DNA from: a virus
Reading direction: 5' to 3' (one strand)
IMG/VR virus record: IMGVR_UViG_3300023174_000046
Coordinates: 153,414-217,413 of that record
DNA length: 64,000 nt
A program made the position numbers and the translations under genes. The notes beneath the pieces are model-generated. The model was not told the DNA's origin. It saw nothing but the letters and a program-made list of their open reading frames with translations, and ran no database searches. Below are positions 12,920 through 60,596 of the stretch, one piece after another; the first letter of the stretch is position 1, and the number at the start of each line of letters is the position of its first letter.

Positions 12920-14533
12920 ATGATCCTCGAGGCTATAGATGGCAGTATATTAATTGCGCTTGATGATGCAATCTTACTAGATGTAGGAAGTACACCGCCC
13001 GCTCCAGACACAAATTATACAGAACTCCCACAAGGTGAACCTCTTACACTTTCACTTCAAAGTTACAACTTGTTAAGAACCAACGGTGTGTATTTGTGTG
13101 GAGCTGATTATTCATCAGTAACTGATTATTTGAGTACAGGGTTTTTCGATGGTTACGTAAATGTTGAAGATTTTAAAAACACAAAAAGTTTATCTGGGTA
13201 TTTTCCTTCGTTCTCTGCATATAAAATTTCAACAAATGCATACAGAGTAGCAAATAATAATATTATTGATGTAAAGTTACCGCCAGTAGCAATTTCATAC
13301 GATACAGATGCATCGTTTAATATTATTGTAAAAAATACAGGTGGGTATAGTAAGAGCAGGTTATATTACCCAGCTAGCATCGAACCTTCACCAACGCCCA
13401 CACTAACTGTCACACCAACTGTCACACCAACTGTCACACCTACAGTAACGCCATCTGCAACACTCCCACCCCCTTTACCAAAGAAATTGCTTAGCACAGG
13501 AAACAATTTATATGGTCAATTGGGATTGGGCAACAGTGGTGCTAGTACAAGCAGAAACACTCTCACTCCATTGACTGGCAATTGGTTACAGGTCACATGT
13601 GGGTATTGGCACACCATGGCGCTGTCTGCTGGTGCTACAAAATGGTTTAGCGCAGGAAGCAATTTCAGTGGTCAATTAGGATTAGGATTGGAATTTGGTA
13701 ACACCAGAAGCACATTCACTCCATTGACTGGCAATTGGAGTCAGATGGCATGTGGTCACAGCTACACCATGGCACTGTCTGCTGGTACTACTCGGTTGTT
13801 TGGCACAGGACTCAATTCCTTTGGTGGTTTTGGATTGGGTGATACAGTTCGGAGAAACACCTTCACTGCACTGACTGGCAACTGGTCCCAGATGGCATGT
13901 GGTGTGGGTCACACCATAGCATTAAGTGCAGATACAGACAGGTGGTTTATCACAGGAGACAATTTCAGCGGTCAATTAGGCTTAGGTGACAGTGGCAGCG
14001 CTACTGATAGACTCACTTTTATAGCATTGACTGGCAATTGGTCACAAGTCAGATGTGGTGGGTATCACACCATGGCACTGTCTGCTGGTACTACTCGGTT
14101 GTTTGGCACAGGAAACAATAGCAGCGGTCAATTGGGATTGAGCGACACAACTAATAGAAACACTTTCACTGCATTGACTGGCAATTGGTCACAAGTCATA
14201 TGTGGAAGCGAACTTACCATAGCATTAAGTGCAGATACAGACAGGTGGTTTATCACCGGGCGGAATGACAATGGTCAATTGGGATTGGGTGATACAGTTC
14301 AGAGAAACACCTTCACTGCATTGACTGGCAATTGGTCACAGTTTGCATGTGGTAGGTTTCACACCATGGCACTGTCTGCTGGTACCGATGCATGGTTTGG
14401 CACAGGAAACAATAGCAGCGGTCAATTGGGATTGGGTGATACAGTTCAGAGAAACACCTTCACTGCATTGACTGGCAATTGGTTACAATTCATATGTGGA
14501 AGCGAACACACCATGGCATTGAGCGCTACATAA
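12920..14533 (+). CDS. Virion protein with seven RCC1-like repeats on a Thr-Pro linker
   Basis: 537 residues. The N-terminal 155 residues are unrecognised and probably attach to the virion. A T-P-T-V-T-P linker follows (about residues 155-180), then seven repeats of about 50 residues (from about 190). Each reads G-x-N-x-x-G-Q-L-G-L-G, then F-T-x-L-T-G-N-W-S-Q, then C-G-x-x-H-T-M-A-L-S. Seven blades is the complete number for an RCC1-type beta propeller. Such propellers are protein- or glycan-binding platforms; displayed after a stalk-like linker it would be a receptor-binding or adhesion module. The repeats are very similar at DNA level, indicating recent amplification. Confidence 0.72.
   Translation: MILEAIDGSILIALDDAILLDVGSTPPAPDTNYTELPQGEPLTLSLQSYNLLRTNGVYLCGADYSSVTDYLSTGFFDGYVNVEDFKNTKSLSGYFPSFSAYKISTNAYRVANNNIIDVKLPPVAISYDTDASFNIIVKNTGGYSKSRLYYPASIEPSPTPTLTVTPTVTPTVTPTVTPSATLPPPLPKKLLSTGNNLYGQLGLGNSGASTSRNTLTPLTGNWLQVTCGYWHTMALSAGATKWFSAGSNFSGQLGLGLEFGNTRSTFTPLTGNWSQMACGHSYTMALSAGTTRLFGTGLNSFGGFGLGDTVRRNTFTALTGNWSQMACGVGHTIALSADTDRWFITGDNFSGQLGLGDSGSATDRLTFIALTGNWSQVRCGGYHTMALSAGTTRLFGTGNNSSGQLGLSDTTNRNTFTALTGNWSQVICGSELTIALSADTDRWFITGRNDNGQLGLGDTVQRNTFTALTGNWSQFACGRFHTMALSAGTDAWFGTGNNSSGQLGLGDTVQRNTFTALTGNWLQFICGSEHTMALSAT
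13488..14530 (+). repeat. Seven tandem ~150-bp RCC1-type coding repeats
   Basis: Each unit of about 145-155 bp contains near-identical blocks such as ACTGGCAATTGG and ACCATGGCACTGTCTGCTGG. High nucleotide identity between units allows blade number to change by recombination. Confidence 0.75.
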
Positions 14534-38527: not shown

Positions 38528-39415
38528 ATGGCGTTTGATAAAGACTTTAAACTGCTTCAAGAAGAATACAGCAACATGTATTCAAATGCTGAAAACGCAG
38601 AAGGTTTAGCTTCTACTGTTGGCATTCTTCCATGGAAAGAAGTGCCTGAAGAAGAAAAGAACAAAGCATATGAGCTAATAAAGGCTCATAATGATGCTGT
38701 GGTTAACCCCAAAGATGGTCCAGAAAATTATTACTTCATTGATGTAACTGGCAAGCATCAAGTTTATTATACATTTTGGAGATTCAGAATATTGCCAGCT
38801 GCAATACGCAATTGGATCAAGAATCCCATTTACTTTGGCAATTTATCCACAGACATTGTTGCATCTGTTCAAAAGGCTTTGTCAAAGAATATTGTAAAGA
38901 ATGTGCGGGTAGAATTGTATGGTGATGAAACTAGAGAACACTTGATAGGCAGAAGCAAGTCTACCCCTAAATTTACTTTTGGCAAATACAGAGGCAAATC
39001 GTTCCCTGATGTGTATCTAGAAGATCCAGGTTACTTTGCTTTCTTAGCCAAGAACGCTGATCCCAAGTATGCATCTACAGATAATGCTCAAGCCATTCAA
39101 GCTTTTGCGCAAATGTATTTTGATGATGTCACTAAAAAGAACCAGGAAACTTCTACTGCACAATTTGTGGGCAAACCAGGTGATCGCTTTGAAGGTGAAT
39201 TAGAACTTTATAATTTAAAAGAGGTTCCTGGTACCAGAGAGCAAGATGGTTATAATGTGTACAAATTGAAAGATGCTCAAGGCAATAAATATATTACATA
39301 TGCGTTTCCTGCTTCAGAAGTAGGTACTAAGATGAAAGTTAGAGCCAAGATTCAAGCACATAAAGAAATTTTAGGTGTCAAATTTAACAAGATTGGATAT
39401 GTAAAACCTGTATGA
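38528..39415 (+). CDS. Protein with exonuclease X C-terminal-like (DUF3820) segment
   Basis: 295 residues. PKFTFGKYRGKSFPDVYLEDPGYFAFLAKN (about 150-178) is the G-K-Y-x-G-K-x-x-x-x-V-x-x-x-D-P-x-Y-x-x-[FW]-L signature found at the C-terminus of exodeoxyribonuclease X and in stand-alone phage proteins. The C-terminal domain (about 215-295) is beta-rich and OB-like. Probably binds DNA. Coupled to the next, tagged gene by ATGA. Confidence 0.6.
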   Translation: MAFDKDFKLLQEEYSNMYSNAENAEGLASTVGILPWKEVPEEEKNKAYELIKAHNDAVVNPKDGPENYYFIDVTGKHQVYYTFWRFRILPAAIRNWIKNPIYFGNLSTDIVASVQKALSKNIVKNVRVELYGDETREHLIGRSKSTPKFTFGKYRGKSFPDVYLEDPGYFAFLAKNADPKYASTDNAQAIQAFAQMYFDDVTKKNQETSTAQFVGKPGDRFEGELELYNLKEVPGTREQDGYNVYKLKDAQGNKYITYAFPASEVGTKMKVRAKIQAHKEILGVKFNKIGYVKPV

Positions 39416-39999
39416 AAAAGTTCAAAGAATTTTTTACAGAAGATTTTGATGATAATTCTGATGATTTAGATAGCAAATTAATAACAATGCATAAGCAGAT
39501 GCAAAAAAGAAGACAAATGTCCGGCAAGTCTTTACAGTCTGTAGATGCTGCTCCCTTAATGGCACCAGGATACTTTAAAGATTTTAATTTAAGTACAATT
39601 GCTAAGGGGCTGAGAAGATATTATAGAAGTATTATAGTTGATTATTATTCTAAAATTTTTAAAACTTTTAAAGATAAAATTGAACCTATATCCCAACAAG
39701 GAAAATGGGAGATGGACCCAGTTAAACAAGCTGAAAGCTTTAGAAGCTTAAGGTCTGCAGGCGGTCCAAAGTTTACCTTGTGTGGTTTTAATTTTGATAA
39801 AAGATATGGCTTTACTGATGAAGATAGACAAATGAATAATATCCTGGTCAATAGAATGTATGAAAAGATACATGACACCTTGCCCAAACTACTGGGCAAC
39901 AAAGCAAAAGCTATTGATATAAAGATTGACAACGACCCTTGGTATACAGGGCTTACATGTATAACAATAAATATATATTTGAACTATGAAAACGTTTAA
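39412..39999 (+). CDS. Protein with capsid-targeting-like N-terminus (MKKFKEFFTE)
   Basis: 195 residues. The first ten residues closely resemble the T4 capsid-targeting sequence (M-K-T-Y-Q-E-F-I-A-E type) with Glu at position 10, followed by an acidic spacer (DFDDNSDDLDSK). The body is an unrecognised alpha/beta domain (FTLCGFNFDKRYGF, KIDNDPWYTGLTCITINIY). Proposed to be packaged in the head and possibly injected. The 3' end overlaps the next tagged gene. Confidence 0.65.
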   Translation: MKKFKEFFTEDFDDNSDDLDSKLITMHKQMQKRRQMSGKSLQSVDAAPLMAPGYFKDFNLSTIAKGLRRYYRSIIVDYYSKIFKTFKDKIEPISQQGKWEMDPVKQAESFRSLRSAGGPKFTLCGFNFDKRYGFTDEDRQMNNILVNRMYEKIHDTLPKLLGNKAKAIDIKIDNDPWYTGLTCITINIYLNYENV

Positions 40000-40252
40000 A
40001 GAATTTTATTTAGAAGAAAAAGCTGGTGCAAGATGCACCAAGGTAACAGGTCAGCAATCATCTACACGGAAAGATAAGAAGTATATGCGCTGTGCACGTG
40101 TAAATGGTAAATTAAAAAGAGTGCATTACGGTGATCCTAATTTACGTATTAAGAAATCTAACCCCAAGAAAAGAAAGTCTTTCAGAGCTCGTCACAAGTG
40201 TTCTTCTGCCAAACCAGGAACAGCTAAGTATTTCAGCTGCAAAAATTGGTGA
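39986..40252 (+). CDS. Basic Cys-containing phage protein with capsid-targeting-like N-terminus
   Basis: 88 residues. Starts MKTFKEFYLEEKAG, the same tag type. The body (RVHYGDPNLRIKKSNPKKRK, then SFRARHKCSSAKPGTAKYFS and CKNW) matches a small conserved phage protein with the pattern G-D-P-x-x-x-x-K, S-F-x-A-R-H-x-C and S-C-K-x-W (recollection). High basicity suggests DNA association inside the capsid. An AATAAATA box lies 12 nt upstream, further than usual. Confidence 0.7.
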   Translation: MKTFKEFYLEEKAGARCTKVTGQQSSTRKDKKYMRCARVNGKLKRVHYGDPNLRIKKSNPKKRKSFRARHKCSSAKPGTAKYFSCKNW

Positions 40253-40614
40253 AAACGTTTAAAGAGTTTTTTATCGAATCAAAGCAAAAGCATTCTAAAC
40301 AAGAGGCGGGTTACGTGGCGCATACTGTTAAAGGTCAAAGATGTGATCAATGTACTATGTGGAGAGCTCCTAATAAATGCTCTGCAGTAGCAGGAGATAT
40401 CAAACCTGAAGCATGGTGCAAGTGGTGGAAGCAAAGCCACAGAAAAGATTTAAAAGAGAAGAGCATACATGATCCTGTAAGGCCTGGTATATTAAAGCGT
40501 CAGACCAAAGGCAAAATGACCTGCTCCAAAGCAAGAAGATTAAGGGCTAAGCAAAAGAATAAAGGTAACAATACAGCTAAAGCAGCTCAACGCTACTTAA
40601 ATTATCACTGTTAA
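40249..40614 (+). CDS. HiPIP-like Cys protein with capsid-targeting-like N-terminus
   Basis: 121 residues from GTG 40249 (overlaps the previous stop), giving MKTFKEFFIESKQ. The domain EAGYVAHTVKGQRCDQCTMW, NKCSAVAGDIKPEAWCKWW has the C-x-x-C ... C ... W-C spacing and the V-x-G-x-I-x-P-x-x-W-C signature of high-potential iron-sulfur-like proteins. The C-terminal part is very basic (KRQTKGKMTCSKARRLRAKQK). Metal content is inferred from motif spacing only. Confidence 0.65.
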   Translation: MKTFKEFFIESKQKHSKQEAGYVAHTVKGQRCDQCTMWRAPNKCSAVAGDIKPEAWCKWWKQSHRKDLKEKSIHDPVRPGILKRQTKGKMTCSKARRLRAKQKNKGNNTAKAAQRYLNYHC

Positions 40615-41543
40615 GCCCACTGTGCTGTAAACGGCGTTGTGTAGTTTGTAAATGTGTTTGTAGCTGTCTTGTAAAGCTCAAAGCTATTAACTTGTATATA
40701 AGCCTGGTAACCATCATCCACATTGATGAATGTGCCATTAACCACAAACACATCTGCTGTGAGTGCTGGTGAGAACAGTGTCATACCAGCAGTTAGATTA
40801 GCTCTTGCTTGTGTGCTTGTAGCAGCACGAATAGATTCTGTTGCAAGCTTCATTCTTGTACCAATACCAGAAGTTGTTTGAAGCGAAGTTACATAATTAG
40901 CTGTTAAAGCTTTTCTTGTTGTTGTATCATCCCATAGAATTTTATTCAAGACATATTGCTGATAGTTGTTACCTGTACCGTAACCGGCGCCACCGGTACC
41001 AAAAGGAAATACATCACCACTTAATGGTGCAGTACTAGAAAGAGCATTGCTTGCTGTACCATAAACAGCAGGATTTACTAATCTATTCACAGCAACACCA
41101 ACAGCACCGCAAGTGTTTGAAAGTTCATTGCCTTGACCTCTTCTGAGCATGTAACCCAAATAGCCGCTCAAAGAGCATACACCAATATGAGGAGCAGAAA
41201 ATAACATTAATGCACCATTGGTAGCATATTGTATGTGTGAAGCCCATGCAAAGAGTGCAATTCTCCCAGTATGCGGGTAACCACCAATGCCACCTGCAAA
41301 AAATGGTCCTTGAAAATCATTCAAAGTAGCAGGCATTTGACCAATATTGTTATTGTAATAAGCTGGTGCATTTGCATCATCTGAACAAATTGAATCGGCT
41401 AATAAAACATTGTTGGCGCTATACCCACATAATGTTTGAATAAACGTTTTGCAATATCTGCCAAAATCTTCCACAAGAATGGCTCCAGGGTAGGCAGAAG
41501 CTGCTGTTACTATTGAGGTGTATGTTGATTGTGATATTGGCAT
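40611..41543 (-). CDS. LCIB/theta-carbonic anhydrase-like protein, copy B
   Basis: 310 residues. SICSDDANAP (Cys53, Asp55), GGIGGYPHTGRIALFAWASH, FSAPHIGV (His119) and LRRGQGNELSNTCGAVG (Cys145) reproduce the conserved core of LCIB/LCIC (limiting-CO2-inducible B) proteins. In those the zinc ligands are Cys, His and Cys in this order, with an Asp two residues after the first Cys. All these positions are kept. The C-terminal GTFINVDDGYQAYIQV is shared with the next gene. Predicted role: interconversion of CO2 and bicarbonate, or a virion protein derived from that fold. The end overlaps the last 4 nt of the plus-strand HiPIP-like gene. Confidence 0.78.
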   Translation of the reverse strand: MPISQSTYTSIVTAASAYPGAILVEDFGRYCKTFIQTLCGYSANNVLLADSICSDDANAPAYYNNNIGQMPATLNDFQGPFFAGGIGGYPHTGRIALFAWASHIQYATNGALMLFSAPHIGVCSLSGYLGYMLRRGQGNELSNTCGAVGVAVNRLVNPAVYGTASNALSSTAPLSGDVFPFGTGGAGYGTGNNYQQYVLNKILWDDTTTRKALTANYVTSLQTTSGIGTRMKLATESIRAATSTQARANLTAGMTLFSPALTADVFVVNGTFINVDDGYQAYIQVNSFELYKTATNTFTNYTTPFTAQWA

Positions 41544-41551
41544 AAAAAATA

Positions 41552-42652
41552 TTAGTTGAGTTGTAATCCTGATTTAAATTGTGTAGTAAAGTCTTCGAAG
41601 GTATCTGTGGTCTTGTTGTATCTTAAGAAGTTTGTTACATCTGCATAAGCTTTAAATCCATCATCCACGTTAATAAATGTACCAGTGCTCAAGAACACAT
41701 CAACATTTCTGCCAGGGAACGCTGTTCTATAAGCAAGCTTGAATGTGCTGTTATTGTCAGGTTTAGCAATAATATTGAAAGCAGAGTTGCGAATTGCTTC
41801 TGTGGCCAATATCATTTGCTGCCCGAAGTCTGATGTTGCACAAATGGCTGTGCGTGCTGTTACATCATCATAAATTGCCTTGACAAGAGTATAGAATTGA
41901 AAATCCGATGCATTTGTTAACAATACATCAAGTGGATCAGGGCTAGGCCATTGAGGAGCAGGGCCGCTTACACCATTGTTTCTGATCCAATCAACAGCAG
42001 CTGCTGCAGCACCACAAGTTGCAGAAAGATTACCATAATTTTGACCGCGGCGTCTCATGTAACCTACTTGACCATCGCGAGTGATGCCAATGTGAGGGGC
42101 TATGTACAAGAATAGAGCACCTCCACTTGTGACGTGTGATGCATAAGCAAGGAGCCCTGTGGTACCAGTGTGTGGGTAACCATCTAAGCCGCCACCCATG
42201 AATGGTCCAAGGAAAGTTTGCAATGATTGAGGCATTTGACCGAGATTATTAATATTATTAAACACTGGTCCGTTCACATCATCAGAGCAAATAGATGATG
42301 AAAAGAGAACATTGCTTGGAGTGTAAGCAGCACTTACCGATTGAATATAAGTTTGTACGCGAAGACCAAAGTTTTCAGCTGTTGCAGCAGTTGGGTATGT
42401 CTTTCTTACCACATCACCATAATCAAGTTGTTGCGAAACTGGACCAGAATCAGATGTTAAACTGGAACCATGCATTAAGTTGTTATTCTCTAGTTCTGCA
42501 CGAGCTGCTTGTACTCTTTCTTCTATGATTTGTTGTTCAAATAAGAATTTCTTTTGAAAATCGGCTGATTGTGGCCTGCTAGGCACAACTACGGGGTTGC
42601 GAGGGCGACCATCATATTGCTTTAACCCATCTACATATTGCCTAGGAATCAT
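41552..42652 (-). CDS. LCIB/theta-carbonic anhydrase-like protein, copy A, with anchor-like N-terminus
   Basis: 366 residues from ATG 42652 (a TTG at 42673 is in frame but lies upstream of the late box). The core is SSSICSDDVNGP (Cys122, Asp124), GGGLDGYPHTGTTGLLAYASH, YIAPHIGIT (His187) and RRRGQNYGNLSATCGA (Cys213), so the Cys/His/Cys zinc site and the Asp of theta-class carbonic anhydrases are intact. An extra N-terminal helical segment (FLFEQQIIEERVQAARAELE) resembles the anchor helix of the adhesins at 57705 and 60596. An exact late box lies 5 nt upstream. It is 8 nt from copy B, so the pair is a tandem duplication. Confidence 0.8.
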   Translation of the reverse strand: MIPRQYVDGLKQYDGRPRNPVVVPSRPQSADFQKKFLFEQQIIEERVQAARAELENNNLMHGSSLTSDSGPVSQQLDYGDVVRKTYPTAATAENFGLRVQTYIQSVSAAYTPSNVLFSSSICSDDVNGPVFNNINNLGQMPQSLQTFLGPFMGGGLDGYPHTGTTGLLAYASHVTSGGALFLYIAPHIGITRDGQVGYMRRRGQNYGNLSATCGAAAAAVDWIRNNGVSGPAPQWPSPDPLDVLLTNASDFQFYTLVKAIYDDVTARTAICATSDFGQQMILATEAIRNSAFNIIAKPDNNSTFKLAYRTAFPGRNVDVFLSTGTFINVDDGFKAYADVTNFLRYNKTTDTFEDFTTQFKSGLQLN

Positions 42653-42657
42653 GTAAT

Positions 42658-42665
42658 TATTTATA
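42658..42665 (-). promoter_or_regulatory. T4-late promoter box (TATAAATA, exact)
   Basis: On the minus strand, ends 5 nt before the ATG at 42652; drives the LCIB-like pair. Confidence 0.6.
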
Positions 42666-42671
42666 TTTAAC

Positions 42672-42679
42672 AATAAATA
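42672..42679 (+). promoter_or_regulatory. T4-late-like promoter box (AATAAATA)
   Basis: Ends 6 nt before the ATG at 42686; divergent from the minus-strand box. Confidence 0.5.
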
Positions 42680-42685
42680 ATATCA

Positions 42686-43435
42686 ATGAATAATAAAGAA
42701 AATCGTCTTATATTTGAAGCTTTTGCAACAAAGCTAATTAAAGAGGATATGCCTTATCCTACATTTGCCAAGCTTGCCAAGCATGCTTCGCCTAAATCGT
42801 CCAAGGAAAAAGATGAAAATGAATACAAAGATCAAATGCCTGATAGCAAAGAAGAATATTCAGCTCATGATTATGCCAAAGAAATGGAAGCCAAGCCCGG
42901 TGAACAAGAAGAACAACCACAAACACATGCGGACATGTCTCATGATCAAAAAGAAGCTGCAATGCTTCTCAAGAAGTTTGGTTACACTTTCTTTGACATG
43001 GACATGCACGGTCGTGATTACGTTGCTTATTTTGTGAACGAAAAGCTCCCTCACAATCATGCAAAGCATGGCATCAAAGTGAAGCATGATGGCATCATAG
43101 TTGGTCCTGCAGATTCCCCTTTCATTGGCAAGAAAGTAAAAGAATTAATTCCTTCAGAAGATGCAGAAGAGCAAGCAGAAGCAGTAGCAGTTTCTGGCCA
43201 ATACAAATACATCTATTTTCTAGATGCTGAAGAATGTTATTCCATTAACCCTTATCAAATTGTGCCGTTCAAGAAAGCAGTAAGAGAGACAAGCAATTGG
43301 ACCAAAGCGCGTGTAATGGTTGGTGAAGATATTGTTCAAATTCTTGGCAAGAGTGTTAAAGATCAAAGAGCTTGGTACATTGTAGGTGCAGAAGCTCCCA
43401 ACGATCATGTATTTGAAGTTTTGTTAGGTAGCTAA
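42686..43435 (+). CDS. Protein with capsid-targeting-like LIFE tag
   Basis: 249 residues. N-terminus NNKENRLIFEAFATKLIK: I-F-E followed by A fits a T4-type prohead-protease site after Glu11. A charged low-complexity linker follows (about 35-95). Then come a domain FGYTFFDMDMHGRDYVAYFVNE and a C-terminal domain (YKYIYFLDAEECYSINPYQI). The catalytic nature is not evident. Probable internal virion protein. Confidence 0.65.
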   Translation: MNNKENRLIFEAFATKLIKEDMPYPTFAKLAKHASPKSSKEKDENEYKDQMPDSKEEYSAHDYAKEMEAKPGEQEEQPQTHADMSHDQKEAAMLLKKFGYTFFDMDMHGRDYVAYFVNEKLPHNHAKHGIKVKHDGIIVGPADSPFIGKKVKELIPSEDAEEQAEAVAVSGQYKYIYFLDAEECYSINPYQIVPFKKAVRETSNWTKARVMVGEDIVQILGKSVKDQRAWYIVGAEAPNDHVFEVLLGS

Positions 43436-43436
43436 T

Positions 43437-43985
43437 ATGGATAGAGAATCAAAGCTTATTTTCGAAGCATATGCATTGAAAGGTTTAGCTGCAGGTAAAA
43501 CACTTGCTGATATAGCCAAGAAGCATGGTGTTAGTATAGAAGTGATGCAAACAGCTCTGCAGAGAGGCATGAAAGTTGAACACGAGCACACAGGTAATGA
43601 AGCTGCTGCAAAAAAGATTGCAATGGATCATTTGTTTGAAGATCCAGAATATTATGCAAAACTTGCCAAGATAGAGGGTGAAGAGAGTGAGCAAAATGAA
43701 GAGCGCAGATTGGATCCTAAATGCTGGAAAGGCTATCATAAATCTGGTACCAAGCTCAAAGATGGTGTGCGTGTCAACAATTGTGTTAAATCACAAAATA
43801 ATGAAGAAAAGCTTGTAGGTGGTCAGAAGAAACTGGATGCCAATCATGATGGTAAGATCTCTGGCGCAGATTTTAAAATTCTCAAGAAGCATAAAGGTGA
43901 AGAACAAGAAGAAATGCAATGCCCATATGCAGCAAAAGGCTGTAAATGTAGTGAATGTGAAGAATGTGCTGCCAATCAGGCTTAA
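43437..43985 (+). CDS. LIFE-tagged protein with EF-hand and C-terminal Cys cluster
   Basis: 182 residues. The tag DRESKLIFEAYALKG (Glu10) is followed by an HTH-like segment (KTLADIAKKHGVSIEVMQTAL, 20-odd residues). Near residue 135, LDANHDGKISGADFKILKKH has the D-x-N-x-D-G-x-I-x-x-x-D calcium-binding loop. The end carries CPYAAKGCKCSECEEC, a possible metal cluster. A cargo protein with a DNA-binding start and calcium loop is suggested; function unknown. Confidence 0.65.
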   Translation: MDRESKLIFEAYALKGLAAGKTLADIAKKHGVSIEVMQTALQRGMKVEHEHTGNEAAAKKIAMDHLFEDPEYYAKLAKIEGEESEQNEERRLDPKCWKGYHKSGTKLKDGVRVNNCVKSQNNEEKLVGGQKKLDANHDGKISGADFKILKKHKGEEQEEMQCPYAAKGCKCSECEECAANQA

Positions 43986-44302: not shown

Positions 44303-44331
44303 TTGATATTTTCAGTAATATCATGTATACT
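44303..44331 (+). promoter_or_regulatory. Sigma70-like leaderless promoter
   Basis: TTGATA, 17-nt spacer, TATACT ending 6 nt before the ATG at 44338. Confidence 0.55.
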
Positions 44332-44337
44332 ATAATA

Positions 44338-44958
44338 ATGAGTGAAGATTTAGTCATGCCAGCACCAACTGTTACCATCATAAATGGTTCATTAGGAGGA
44401 AGAACTGGCAACACTAACAATCTCCTGCAAAAAGTTAAGAAGATTATTCTTAAGAAAAACAGTGATACAAATATTAAAGTTGTTCATTTATCACCATCTT
44501 TTGATTGGCTAAAGGTTAAGAGGTGCATTAAAGCTAGTAATATTCTCATTTTCTGTACTGGAACATATTGGGACTCTTGGGGTTCACCCATGCAGCAATT
44601 GTTCGAGAAAATGACACAAATTGAAGGTAAAAAGCATTTGTTAGGCAAACCTGCAGGCGCTATTGTTACAATGCATTCAGTTGGCGGTAAAGAAGTATGC
44701 TCCAGAATTCTTGGCAATCTTGTAGGGCTGGGTTGCATAATACCTCCCTTCACAGGCTTTGCATATGCATACTCAGATCATATTGCGCATCGCTCCAGAG
44801 TATCAGGCAAGAAGCTGTTGGATGATGTGTGGCATATTGACGATCTGGAAGCTTTTGTGCACAACCTATTTGAAGCGCATAAAGGTACAAAGGATTACAT
44901 GGTCTGGGATTACCTGGATACGCAAGCAATGGACCCCAGTTATGTTTGGCTTAAGTAA
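44338..44958 (+). CDS. NADPH-dependent FMN reductase/flavodoxin-fold protein
   Basis: 206 residues from ATG 44338. TIINGSLGGRTGNTNNLL is the FMN-phosphate loop, and FCTGTYWDSWGSPMQQLFEKM matches the second flavin loop (G-T-x-x-x-x-x-x-x-x-x-x-x-F-x-x-x) of NAD(P)H:FMN oxidoreductases. GKPAGAIVTMHSVGGK follows. It could supply reduced flavin to the halogenase at 1892 (inference). The start follows the promoter; an upstream ATG at 44323 lies before the -10 box. Confidence 0.78.
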   Translation: MSEDLVMPAPTVTIINGSLGGRTGNTNNLLQKVKKIILKKNSDTNIKVVHLSPSFDWLKVKRCIKASNILIFCTGTYWDSWGSPMQQLFEKMTQIEGKKHLLGKPAGAIVTMHSVGGKEVCSRILGNLVGLGCIIPPFTGFAYAYSDHIAHRSRVSGKKLLDDVWHIDDLEAFVHNLFEAHKGTKDYMVWDYLDTQAMDPSYVWLK

Positions 44959-56634: not shown

Positions 56635-57705
56635 TCACAAGGACCATTTTTCAGTCAAATAAGAATTAACTGCAATCAATTCTGCATCAGTCAGAATTCT
56701 TTCATAAGCAAAAAATTCTCCAATGACACCATTGAAGTAGGCAATTTCAGAAACAAATCTGCGTCCAATGGCAACTTTGGCAGCATTGGTAGTAGATGAA
56801 TTGCCTTTGGTTTGAAAATCAGGATCTGATCCTGCAGCAGCACCATTGAACAATATGTCCACTTCGCCTGCTGCATAGTTAATTTTGGCTGTTATGATGC
56901 CAGGAGCAGTGTTATTCTTGAATGTGGCAGTGCTGATATCAGCAGGTGCTCCTTTGTCGTTCAAATCAGAATCAAGTCTCCTGCCTCCAGCTGCAAAATA
57001 CCATCCTTCATCATCAGCAGGGGCACCTGGTATCACAGATGGATTGCTCATGAATTTGATTCTGGAACCATTGCCTCCTCCTGGGCTAGGTCTGGTGGTG
57101 GTGAAAATAGCTTCAGGAAGTACAATGCCTGTGTTAGGATTGCCAAACTGTGCCACACAAACCAATGTGATGCCCGCCACATTGTTGGCAAAAGTGAGGG
57201 AGTTCGCATTACCGTTCAAATGATTGCCACTGTTGGAATCAAATTTTAGGTAATTCATGCCTTGGTAGGATGACAGAGCTGGACGAATGAGGCTGTTGGA
57301 TTGTTCAAAGTGTCTGTTGTTTGTGCTCAAGTCCAGCCATGTGGCCACTGGTGTGTTGAGAGCACAAGGGTTGCCAGATGCATCCAACACACTGACTCTG
57401 CGACTTGAATCAAGCCATATGCCTGGATTTGCAGCAGGGGGCACAAGTGGGTTGCTTCCAGCGCTGCCTGGATCTGCTCCAATGCCCATGGCCGCATCTC
57501 TGGATGCACCATGGTGTTCCAATTGTTTGCGAGCTTCTTGTATGATGCGCATTTGTTGCTGTTGATCAAAAGCCATGCTATCATTAATCATTCGCTTCTG
57601 TTGTTGATTGGGAAGCGCCGGACGCCAAGTGTTGGTATCTGGAGGATAAACTACATTTCTCCCCGGATCAGTGAGCGCATTTAAATAGTCATCAAACCAG
57701 TCCAT
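56635..57705 (-). CDS. Virion adhesin: anchor module plus LamG/concanavalin-like domain
   Basis: 356 residues. Residues 1-80 are the anchor module (WFDDYLNALTDPGR, TWRPALPNQQQKRMIND, a helix, then MGIGADPGS) shared with the 60596 gene. Residues from about 95 form a jelly-roll lectin-like domain: PGIWLDSSRRVSVLDASGN, VATWLDLSTNNRHFEQS, LKFDSNSGNHLN, then FNGVIGEFFAYERILTDAE and VNSYLTEKW. This is the LamG/concanavalin-type pattern of sugar-binding domains. Late-type box 5 nt before the ATG. Likely a receptor-binding or capsid-decorating protein. Confidence 0.75.
   Translation of the reverse strand: MDWFDDYLNALTDPGRNVVYPPDTNTWRPALPNQQQKRMINDSMAFDQQQQMRIIQEARKQLEHHGASRDAAMGIGADPGSAGSNPLVPPAANPGIWLDSSRRVSVLDASGNPCALNTPVATWLDLSTNNRHFEQSNSLIRPALSSYQGMNYLKFDSNSGNHLNGNANSLTFANNVAGITLVCVAQFGNPNTGIVLPEAIFTTTRPSPGGGNGSRIKFMSNPSVIPGAPADDEGWYFAAGGRRLDSDLNDKGAPADISTATFKNNTAPGIITAKINYAAGEVDILFNGAAAGSDPDFQTKGNSSTTNAAKVAIGRRFVSEIAYFNGVIGEFFAYERILTDAELIAVNSYLTEKWSL
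57542..57705 (-). repeat. Anchor-module repeat, copy 1 (DNA level ~160 bp)
   Basis: Closely similar in nucleotide sequence to 60436-60596, with shared tracts such as AAAGCCATGCTATCATT and ATCAAACCAGTCCAT. Direct orientation; allows recombination between adhesin genes. Confidence 0.75.
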
Positions 57706-57710
57706 AACAG

Positions 57711-57718
57711 TATTTATC
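57711..57718 (-). promoter_or_regulatory. T4-late-like promoter box (GATAAATA)
   Basis: On the minus strand, ends 5 nt before the ATG at 57705. Confidence 0.5.
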
Positions 57719-60086
57719 CTGGTAAATTCTTAACAACAGTTATATTAGTACCACCTGCTATGCTTTGACCTGCACCAGCAGTCCAGGTGGCATCGCTGGC
57801 TCGAGCATATATTGTACGGCCATTGAGAGTACTTAATGAACCTGCTTCATACACAGTCAATGGAGCAAAGGAACTGATGGTGAGCAAGCTTGTGCAGTTG
57901 TATAAAAACAATCCTCCAATAGATGCAATGCCATTGGGTATGAGTATATTGGTTAAAGACGGGTTTTGTGCAAATGCATAACTGCAAAGGATTGCAGTGC
58001 TAGTGTTTGCTATGTTCACAGCAGTTAATGAGTTTAAATTGAATGCAAATCGACCAACTATGGACACGCTGCCGGGTATGCTCACAGACTTTAACGCATT
58101 GCTTGCAAATGCACCATCACCAATGTATGTTACATTGCTGGGTATATTCACTGCAGACAAATTGTTGCCTTGAAATGCATTGGTACCTATGCTTGTCATA
58201 TTGTTAGGTATAGTTACAGCAGACAATTGATTGTATAAGAATGCACCTATACCTATGCTTGTCATATTGTTAGGTATGTCTACAGCAGACAATTTGTTTT
58301 GTGCAAATGCATAGTCAGGTACAAAATTTATACCAGTCCCCAGTGTAAGGATGGATATATTGTTGCTTTGAAATGCACCTCCACCCATGCTGGTGACAGT
58401 GTCAGGTATGCTCACAGCAGACAATTTGTTGCCGTAGAATGCAAATAAATTAATATTTGTCACGCTGTTGGGTATGGTCACAGCAGACAAATTGTTTAGG
58501 CTAAATGCATAATTTCCTATGGTTGCAACGCTACTGCCCAATGTCAAGAAGGATATGGTGTTGCTTTGAAATGCATAATTGCCAATGGCTGTCACACTGT
58601 TGGGTATGTTCACAGCAGATAATTTCTGGTTATTGAATGTACTTGAGCCAATATATTGCACACTGTTGCCCAGTGTCAAGGAGGATATGTTGTTGCTTTG
58701 AAATGCAGTAGAATCAATATATGTAACTGAGTCTGGTATGTTAACTACAGTTAATTTGTTGTTACCAAATGCATACTCTCCTATGTATGTGACACCATTG
58801 GGTATGGTTGCAGCAGACAAATTGTTGTTGGCAAATGATTGATATGCAATGTTGGTCACACCATTGGGTATGACAATGTCATTCAATCGATTGTCCTTGA
58901 ATGCCTGGTATGATGTGAAGGACAGACCAGTTGGCAGTGTTACAGCAGACAATGCATTGGCAGCAAAAGACAAAGATGCACCAGCTGCACCTTGCTTGGG
59001 CAAACTAACTGCACTCAACTTGTTGTTGGTGCAATACAAGTTTGATATATTCCTACTGCTAGCCACATCCAGGTATGTTAATGCATTGTAATTGCAATTC
59101 ATTTCTTTTAATGCAGAAAGGCTTGACACATCCAGAGATGACAGACTGTTGTAATTCACATAAAGATATTGTATGTTGTTGCATCCTGAAAAATATATGG
59201 AAGAAAGAAGCAATCCTCCTGTTCCAGAGCTGTAATAGCCTTCATAATTATTAACAAAAACACTGATTAGCTTAGGAAGATTGGTGAAAGTAAAAGATGT
59301 GAATTGATTATTTTGCATATAAATAACTTCTAAATCCGTGCATCCAAAAAGATTCACAGATGATAGCCGATTGGATGCAATATTAACAGAGTTTATTTTG
59401 TTGTTGTTGGAAAGATTCAGTGTGGTAAGTTTACCGCCGGGCGCCTGTAAAGATGTTAAGTTCGGAACATTAGTCAGATTGATGGCGGTTAAATTATTGT
59501 TGATACAGTAGAGAGAATGAAGACTGCTGAGACCAGATGCTTGAACAGAAGATAGAACATATTGAAAACCGGCATCATGTTGATAGCTACAATCCAGTAA
59601 CTCTAGTGCAGGCATCTGAGCAGACAGATTGTTCAAAGATGTAAACCAATTAGAATTGCAGTTCAACTGCTTCAGCTTGTGCAAGCCAATGACAGGCAAA
59701 CTTGTAAGTTTATTGCTATTGCAATCTAGTATTTCAACATTTTGCAAATCAAACCCCGTGGTAGGGTCAATTGAATCCCACCCACCCAGCATAGTGGCTA
59801 TTTGCAAATGCTTTACCACTGGTGACAGTATCAGGTCTTCCTGTTCTATGTTATTGTATGACACGTTTAGTTTTGTTGCCAAGGGAAACTGTGTGGCATC
59901 AAAATAATCAAACAAATTGCTGCTCACATCCAGAGTCACAATATTATTTTTACCTGTGATTGCTTGCATCCAGCTGTTCAGCTGACATTCAGCCATGGTC
60001 AAATCCAACTGAGAACAACGGGATGCATCCACACCCTGCATGGGTATTCCTGCAACGTATAACCGGTTAATTTTACCTGTTTTCAT
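57714..60086 (-). CDS. Leucine-rich-repeat adhesin with BspA-like (LRR_5) half
   Basis: 790 residues. The N-terminal part (about 45-370) has LRRs of the type L-x-x-L-x-x-L-D-V-S-x-N-x-L. The C-terminal part (about 375-700) has 22-24-residue BspA-like repeats reading N-x-L-S-A-V-x-I-P-N-S-V-T-x-I-G-x-x-A-F. The last 60 residues (SFAPLTVYEAG, ASDATWTAG) are unrelated. No signal peptide, so it is probably displayed on the virion rather than secreted. It starts 3 nt after the stop of the short anchor-module gene, so the two probably form one adhesin unit. Confidence 0.8.
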   Translation of the reverse strand: MKTGKINRLYVAGIPMQGVDASRCSQLDLTMAECQLNSWMQAITGKNNIVTLDVSSNLFDYFDATQFPLATKLNVSYNNIEQEDLILSPVVKHLQIATMLGGWDSIDPTTGFDLQNVEILDCNSNKLTSLPVIGLHKLKQLNCNSNWFTSLNNLSAQMPALELLDCSYQHDAGFQYVLSSVQASGLSSLHSLYCINNNLTAINLTNVPNLTSLQAPGGKLTTLNLSNNNKINSVNIASNRLSSVNLFGCTDLEVIYMQNNQFTSFTFTNLPKLISVFVNNYEGYYSSGTGGLLLSSIYFSGCNNIQYLYVNYNSLSSLDVSSLSALKEMNCNYNALTYLDVASSRNISNLYCTNNKLSAVSLPKQGAAGASLSFAANALSAVTLPTGLSFTSYQAFKDNRLNDIVIPNGVTNIAYQSFANNNLSAATIPNGVTYIGEYAFGNNKLTVVNIPDSVTYIDSTAFQSNNISSLTLGNSVQYIGSSTFNNQKLSAVNIPNSVTAIGNYAFQSNTISFLTLGSSVATIGNYAFSLNNLSAVTIPNSVTNINLFAFYGNKLSAVSIPDTVTSMGGGAFQSNNISILTLGTGINFVPDYAFAQNKLSAVDIPNNMTSIGIGAFLYNQLSAVTIPNNMTSIGTNAFQGNNLSAVNIPSNVTYIGDGAFASNALKSVSIPGSVSIVGRFAFNLNSLTAVNIANTSTAILCSYAFAQNPSLTNILIPNGIASIGGLFLYNCTSLLTISSFAPLTVYEAGSLSTLNGRTIYARASDATWTAGAGQSIAGGTNITVVKNLPG

Positions 60087-60089
60087 GTG

Positions 60090-60596
60090 TCAAATGCCTC
60101 CATTCACATCACAGGATGTCACTTGCACCAAGCGCGGTGCAGCATATGGATCATCTGGTGCAATGTAGTGTTCAAAATATAACTCATCACCAGGGACACC
60201 TGAGCCAATGACTTCAGATGTGCCATCCCAATATTGCACAAATGCATACCCCGTGGATGTGTATACATATGCATATACATATTGACCTGGATCAACATTG
60301 TAATACAAAGACACAGTCTCTGCCACAATAGGTGCGGCAGGACTGCCTGGATCTGCTCCAATGCCTTCTGCCACATCTGCATGCGACATGTGACCATGTG
60401 TGTGTTCCTCCAGCTCATGTCTGGCCTCTTGAATCATCTTCATTTGTTGCTGTTGATCAAAAGCCATGCTATCATTGATCATTCTTTTCTGTTGTTGATT
60501 GGGACGAGCAGGGCGCCAAGTATATGTGTCTGGGGGGTAGTTAACTGTTCTGCCGGGATCGGTGAGCGCATTTAAATAATCATCAAACCAGTCCAT
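60090..60596 (-). CDS. Virion protein: anchor module plus small C-terminal domain
   Basis: 168 residues. Residues 1-85 are the shared anchor module (WFDDYLNALTDPGR, NQQQKRMINDSMAFDQQQQ, GIGADPGS). The C-terminal 75 residues form a small beta-rich domain (TVSLYYNVDPGQYVYAYVYT, FVQYWDGTSEVIG). Late-type box CATAAATA upstream of the ATG. Probably attaches the LRR protein encoded just downstream to the particle (inference). Confidence 0.7.
   Translation of the reverse strand: MDWFDDYLNALTDPGRTVNYPPDTYTWRPARPNQQQKRMINDSMAFDQQQQMKMIQEARHELEEHTHGHMSHADVAEGIGADPGSPAAPIVAETVSLYYNVDPGQYVYAYVYTSTGYAFVQYWDGTSEVIGSGVPGDELYFEHYIAPDDPYAAPRLVQVTSCDVNGGI
60436..60596 (-). repeat. Anchor-module repeat, copy 2 (DNA level ~160 bp)
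   Basis: Partner of 57542-57705; same orientation, highly similar nucleotide sequence. Confidence 0.75.

Follow-up and report, generated by a model that had tools for sequence, protein, structure and literature searches.

Adjacent LCIB-type carbonic anhydrase homologues in a T4-like phage genome belong to a virus-only branch and may be anchored on virions

Two adjacent LCIB-type genes in a T4-like phage genome

The stretch of DNA analyzed here (hereafter, the window) forms the final 64 kb of a virus record of 217,413 bases (G000) that encodes a T4-like portal protein (PF07230), whose identity to the top-ranked phages with sequenced genomes is ca. 35% at most. Its minus strand carries two tandem ORFs that lie 8 nt apart and encode proteins of 366 and 310 aa (Table 1); the upstream gene most likely starts at the ATG at position 42652 and not at the TTG at 42673 chosen in the ORF call (373 aa). 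Both genes had previously been proposed, in a sequence-only reading, to be adjacent homologues of LCIB-type carbonic anhydrases, and they indeed match the Pfam LCIB_C_CA profile (PF18599) far above its cut-off of 25 bits, with E 7.2e-31 (107.6 bits) for the upstream and E 4.1e-20 (72.5 bits) for the downstream protein. The nearest solved structures by sequence are 6kfs (E 4.5e-19 for the upstream protein) and PtLCIB4. AlphaFold models based on the alignment of viral sequences (pLDDT 74 and 78) point to the same family: Foldseek matched the upstream model to 6kfs (E 2.1e-11) and PtLCIB4 (5b5y; E 3.4e-11) and the downstream model to PtLCIB4 (E 6.3e-13, TM 0.80 on target), and all matches of both models at E < 0.001 were LCIB-family structures (TM on target 0.67 to 0.82). 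Confidence is moderate around the first Cys of the putative metal site, where the pLDDT of the upstream model is only ca. 46 to 56. Profile and fold confirm the two window genes as members of the LCIB/LCIC (theta) carbonic anhydrase family. A fold search of BFVD returned no matching viral structure, and none of the PHROGs convincingly covers the catalytic domain.

Table 1. Coordinates of the features discussed in the text (window positions unless a locus is named)
Feature	Position	Strand	Basis
Upstream LCIB-type (theta/beta-like) carbonic anhydrase homologue	41552..42652	-	PF18599, 6kfs, and PtLCIB4 matches
N-terminal extension, residues 1-76, putative virion anchor, not in downstream copy	42425..42652	-	Predicted helix and weak similarity
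C122, putative first Cys ligand, then S123 (at the PtLCIB4 S47 position), D124, D125	42287..42289 (C122 codon)	-	77/77 viral, 23/23 bacterial
H173, aligned to PtLCIB4 H88 (H88A mutant)	42134..42136	-	76/76 viral
H187 (A-P-H-I-G), putative His ligand	42092..42094	-	76/76 viral, 23/23 bacterial
C213 (T-C-G-A), putative second Cys ligand	42014..42016	-	75/75 viral, 23/23 bacterial
Late promoter box TATAAATA, with its start 13 nt upstream of ATG 42652	42658..42665	-	Genome-wide positional enrichment
Downstream LCIB-type homologue, without anchor	40611..41543	-	PF18599, Foldseek 5b5y
C53, putative first Cys ligand, downstream copy	41385..41387	-	Sequence, codons
H119, putative His ligand, downstream copy	41187..41189	-	Sequence, codons
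C145, putative second Cys ligand, downstream copy	41109..41111	-	Sequence, codons
FMN reductase-like genes	44323-44958; L002:7960-8646; L003:7116-7802; L016:14714-15325	+; -; -; +	
Laminin-G-like protein, N-terminal module as in 60090-60596, late box at -13	56635..57705	-	Matches virion structural PHROG
Small protein headed by an adhesin-type module (MDWFDDYLNAL...), with a late box at -15	60090..60596	-	Anchor comparison

Conservation of the putative metal site

Codon by codon, the site residues are C122-S123-D124-D125, H173, H187, R201, and C213 in the upstream protein and C53-S-D55-D56, H103, H119, R134, and C145 in the downstream protein. Both copies encode the three putative zinc ligands that had been recognized before, in the order C-S-D, A-P-H-I-G, and T-C-G-A, together with the Asp after the first Cys (D124 and D55) and the GGxxGYPHTG loop. 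We aligned 78 distinct viral sequences with 23 homologues from bacteria, counting at each residue the sequences that reach it, and found C122, D124, D125, H173, H187, R201, and C213 to be invariant among the viral sequences; the same positions are invariant in the bacterial homologues with the exception of D125, which is either Asp or Glu. Two PtLCIB4 mutants in the PDB can be placed on this alignment, with S47R falling on the Ser after the first Cys and H88A on H173, and we infer that these mutants were made because both positions matter. At the position of S47, viruses have Ser in 71 cases, Ala in 6, and Arg in none, and this absence of Arg would be expected of active LCIB members.

We also considered classical beta-carbonic anhydrases, which have a related fold that is reflected in weak Foldseek matches to fungal representatives (E about 0.4), and rejected this assignment. 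These enzymes are characterized by C-x-D-x-R and H-x-x-C spacing, whereas the phage proteins lack both and have C122-S-D-D-V in the upstream copy, where H187 and C213 are 26 residues apart.

A late promoter box upstream of the pair

The upstream gene is preceded by the exact late promoter box TATAAATA that had been claimed for it, and across the genome the motif is enriched 13 to 14 nt before ATG codons. It is marked by its position relative to the ATG; plain counting, by which the exact TATAAATA octamer is not over-represented in the 64-kb window (5 seen, 7.0 expected), would have wrongly dismissed it. In the whole genome, 27 of 85 NATAAATA sites (32%) have an ATG at 12 to 15 nt that opens an ORF of at least 100 aa, compared to 91 of 3,716 sites (2.4%) for permuted cores, a control that is inflated by the permuted core TAAATAA, which is the NATAAATA motif shifted by one base (P of the enrichment about 2e-21). 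Judged by names read from their sequences, the genes with a box resemble those for tail sheath, tail tube, prohead protease, long fibers or adhesins, and two MDWFDDYLNAL proteins. NATAAATA also lies at -12 to -15 before the LCIB gene in loci L002, L003, L014-L018, L021, L023-L026, L029, and L031-L034, and it has been reported as the late promoter of the T4-like cyanophage S-PM2 (PMC2984593).

Thirty of the 45 box-ATG pairs in G000 are spaced by 13 to 14 nt, e.g., those at window positions 42652 (-), 14607 (+), and 57705 (-); further examples of the spacing are at L011:1771, L011:4096, and L008:7658. With T4 geometry, such spacing would place the transcription start at or near the start codon, and it is possible by this analogy that late mRNAs have very short or absent leaders genome-wide. 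The downstream LCIB gene has no box of its own upstream and is probably co-transcribed by read-through from the upstream gene. The late box indicates late expression, which is not packaging.

A virus-only branch of the LCIB family

LCIB-type carbonic anhydrases have been studied as parts of algal CO2-concentrating mechanisms. A 2020 review lists theta-type enzymes for diatoms and green algae only (PMC7215798). Our limited literature search found no published report of a phage LCIB, and tblastn with four viral LCIB proteins as queries yielded neither a convincing match nor an isolate with the gene among 50,697 phage records; within these records and this literature, the earlier remark that no described phage pair was known stands. 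In IMG/VR, profile scans returned 84 candidate stretches encoding a relative, and at least 80 contigs hold LCIB relatives. The best 80 of the 84 stretches together with our first scans and the window yielded 91 ORFs in 83 loci with 78 distinct sequences, and 33 of 33 viral records were over the PF18599 cut-off.

A tree of 74 viral, 22 bacterial, and 3 algal sequences, which was calculated by a quick method and came with long-branch warnings, unites the 74 viral sequences behind a single branch (SH-aLRT 100) that sets them apart from the LCIBs of Bacteroidota and algae and has a long stem of 1.15 changes per column. The window pair belongs to a viral family that is far larger and in most cases single-copy, and this virus-only branch was apparently undescribed previously. 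LCIB genes directly follow a gp23-type major capsid gene in L023 and L030 and a portal gene in L016, lie close behind another gp23-type capsid gene in L087, and are found in the context of a crAss-like, Cellulophaga phi4:1-like capsid in L039. Since these contexts differ, the sequences indicate that a single family of viral enzymes occurs across tailed phages that are not related to each other, both T4-like and crAss-like.

The closest cellular sequences that we found are homologues from Bacteroidota and related bacteria (L052-L074), which have 27% to 42% identity and the same metal-site residues. They differ from the phage proteins in being mostly ca. 230 to 270 aa long without a long extension, in falling nearly all outside the viral clade, and in the GYP[HF] loop, where all 23 carry Phe while 54 of 76 viral sequences carry His. 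One "bacterial" LCIB from a Chitinophagaceae MAG (L068, on a contig of 5,376 bases) sits on a long branch at the base of the viral clade; its contig may be viral or its placement an artefact.

The different loop residue and the long viral stem would also be compatible with the same fold and metal site acting on another substrate, e.g., in carbonyl sulfide- or CS2-hydrolase-like reactions such as those known from some beta-carbonic anhydrase relatives. We regard this as very improbable, given that no sequence feature points to a specific alternative and that the nearest solved relatives are CO2-related proteins.

N-terminal extensions and shared modules

Within the extension of the upstream protein, a helix is predicted at residues 30 to 57 (42482-42565; pLDDT about 70 in the AlphaFold model). 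The sequence-only reading had seen an extra helix resembling the anchor module of the phage's adhesins; the helix was recovered, but the resemblance to the N-termini of the Laminin-G-like and MDWFDDYLNAL proteins listed in Table 1 turned out weak (hmmsearch E 3.2), with an hhalign probability of 48% against the adhesin N-termini that none of 100 column shuffles equaled. We take these values as suggestive of an anchor and do not go so far as to call the helix a copy of the adhesin module. The two proteins used for comparison have the N-terminus MDWFDDYLNALTDPGR in common, one of them ends in its Laminin-G-like domain, and both lie beside a BspA-type leucine-rich-repeat protein (57714-60086, minus strand).

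Among the relatives, most viral copies have N-terminal extensions of several unrelated kinds, while bacterial copies mostly start at the catalytic domain. When we searched every ORF of the retrieved loci with these extensions, some kinds turned up again on further proteins, including fiber- or baseplate-type ones and frequently within one contig. In L037, the same first ca. 40 residues are found on four proteins, and in L027 and L032 the LCIB protein carries a module of this type that also heads proteins with a C-terminal PHROG 677 domain (baseplate wedge or tail fiber connector), one of which additionally has RCC1 repeats. A KPYARF...GSL module heads many neighboring proteins, i.e., short ones and some with threonine-rich stalks, and LTLRxTKGSAL-type and MSTLxxN-type modules likewise head adjacent proteins. 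Such sharing of N-terminal modules is a common build of particle proteins. Against the phage records, three of the anchor modules gave nothing beyond a marginal 23-residue match. RCC1-like beta-propeller proteins are encoded in the window (12920-14533, plus strand) and in L032 (6126-8669), and the latter bears the same type of N-terminal module as the L032 LCIB protein.

Tandem LCIB pairs occur in the window and in L001-L003, L031, L035, L036, and L075; in each case the extended copy precedes the short one. The phage pair can be compared with LCIB and LCIC of Chlamydomonas, which make up a heteromeric two-protein complex (PMC5876011). By this analogy, pairs of the window type may form hetero-oligomers in which one partner docks and both have active sites.

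Gene neighborhoods

The immediate neighbors of the window pair have no PHROG structural assignment. Many of them (39412-39999, 39986-40252, 40246-40614, 42686-43435, and 43437-43985) start with MKTFKEFxxE- or MNxDSKLIFEAY-like sequences, which are also found near LCIB genes in L016, L001, and L037. These starts resemble the capsid-targeting sequence of T4, which is cleaved by the prohead protease, and the respective neighbors may be packaged internal head proteins. In several phages, including that of the window, a gene resembling NADPH-dependent FMN reductases lies within ca. 5 kb of the LCIB gene (Table 1). In Flavobacterium phage immuto, genes for a short "tail fiber protein" and for a repetitive protein of 546 aa occupy the slot between the capsid and PhoH genes (L116:9690-11613); in L087, the capsid gene is followed by a short fiber-like ORF and the LCIB gene.

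psbA was detected in 0 of 33 viral records, many of them partial, with a control genome giving a signal, and a photosynthetic CO2-concentrating role in the manner of cyanophage auxiliary genes is not favored. More generally, the pair might encode an intracellular auxiliary metabolic enzyme that supplies bicarbonate or CO2 for carboxylation or buffers pH late in infection, with extensions serving oligomerization or location. Such a role would fit the conserved catalytic residues, the Bacteroidota homologues without extension, and the company of an FMN reductase gene and genes without structural assignment in the window. We nevertheless consider it unlikely, as the extensions vary by lineage and several are common to fiber- or baseplate-type proteins, several LCIB genes lie within capsid or portal clusters, the promoter is late and not early, the viral proteins form a single virus-only clade instead of repeated host captures, and psbA is missing from the records searched.

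A putative virion-anchored carbonic anhydrase

Late expression, shared anchor modules, and gene positions favor a virion protein, and the invariant catalytic residues favor an enzyme. Our preferred reading, to which we assign a probability of roughly 60%, is that the window pair encodes a late-expressed LCIB-type carbonic anhydrase that would be anchored to the virion. The initial suggestion of a virion-associated protein is supported by the late box, which is real, and more by the relatives, with their shared modules and capsid or portal positions, than by the window; of the two options offered then, enzyme or structural derivative, the invariance of catalytic positions across the viral set leans toward the enzyme.

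In the proposed mechanism, the NATAAATA late promoter would drive a two-gene transcript whose upstream product docks on the particle via its N-terminal helical extension and is probably joined by the anchorless downstream product in a hetero-oligomer like that of Chlamydomonas. Each catalytic domain would hold zinc by Cys-His-Cys and interconvert CO2 and bicarbonate, acting where the particle contacts the host envelope or on entry. Other phages would carry the same catalytic domain on unrelated lineage-specific modules, some of them common to other particle-type proteins. As to the benefit for the phage, we can only guess at a local effect on pH, CO2, or bicarbonate at the host surface or on entry, while the particle adsorbs or injects. 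Against this reading stand the marginal anchor similarity in the window, the immediate neighbors without PHROG structural assignment, the moderate model confidence around the first Cys, the missing obvious benefit of a few virion-borne enzymes for CO2 chemistry, and the fast diffusion of CO2. Furthermore, inactivity has been reported for some LCIB proteins of algae whose zinc site is intact (PMC5876011), which counts against activity.

These inactive algal proteins would be in line with a structural or receptor-binding derivative, i.e., an LCIB fold used as decoration protein or adhesin in which zinc is structural or ligand-binding and carbonic anhydrase activity is not significant. The modular anchors and gene positions are those of decoration and adhesin proteins, and the post-capsid slot of the related phage immuto is occupied by a repetitive, apparently non-enzymatic protein. 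This alternative nonetheless seems quite unlikely to us, since the positions that are invariant across divergent viral proteins include the non-ligands D124, H173, and R201, whose retention would be unnecessary in a purely structural protein, and since Arg never replaces the residue aligned to S47.

Seen against known systems, the putative virion enzyme shares with the LCIB/LCIC family (PtLCIB4, 5b5y; algal LCIB, 5k5w; LCIC, 5b5x; and 6kfs) the PF18599 domain, the fold, the putative Cys/His/Cys ligands, the Asp after the first Cys, the His aligned to PtLCIB4 H88, and the Arg of the RRG motif. It differs in being phage-encoded, in forming a separate clade, in N-terminal extensions of the virion-protein type, and in genes with a late phage promoter and no link to photosynthesis genes. 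To decoration and adhesin proteins of T4-like virions it is alike in position and architecture only, i.e., in the late promoter, the layout of an anchor plus an exposed domain, and, in relatives, a gene location close to capsid or portal. It differs in its exposed part, which would be a conserved domain of the metalloenzyme type and not an Ig-like, lectin, or RCC1 domain.

The virus-only branch, with its at least 80 contigs, is a gene family that escapes phage collections and PHROGs, since none of the sequenced isolates in the collection has the gene. More tentatively, and with somewhat less than even confidence, we suggest that phages of several lineages, T4-like and crAss-like, may display a catalytically active carbonic anhydrase on the particle exterior, as a long-kept virus-specific family that was re-mounted on different docking modules and whose CO2/bicarbonate chemistry would be used in adsorption or genome delivery. 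If true, this would represent a new kind of enzyme in phage virions and raise the question of whether CO2/bicarbonate or pH matters when such phages attach or inject.
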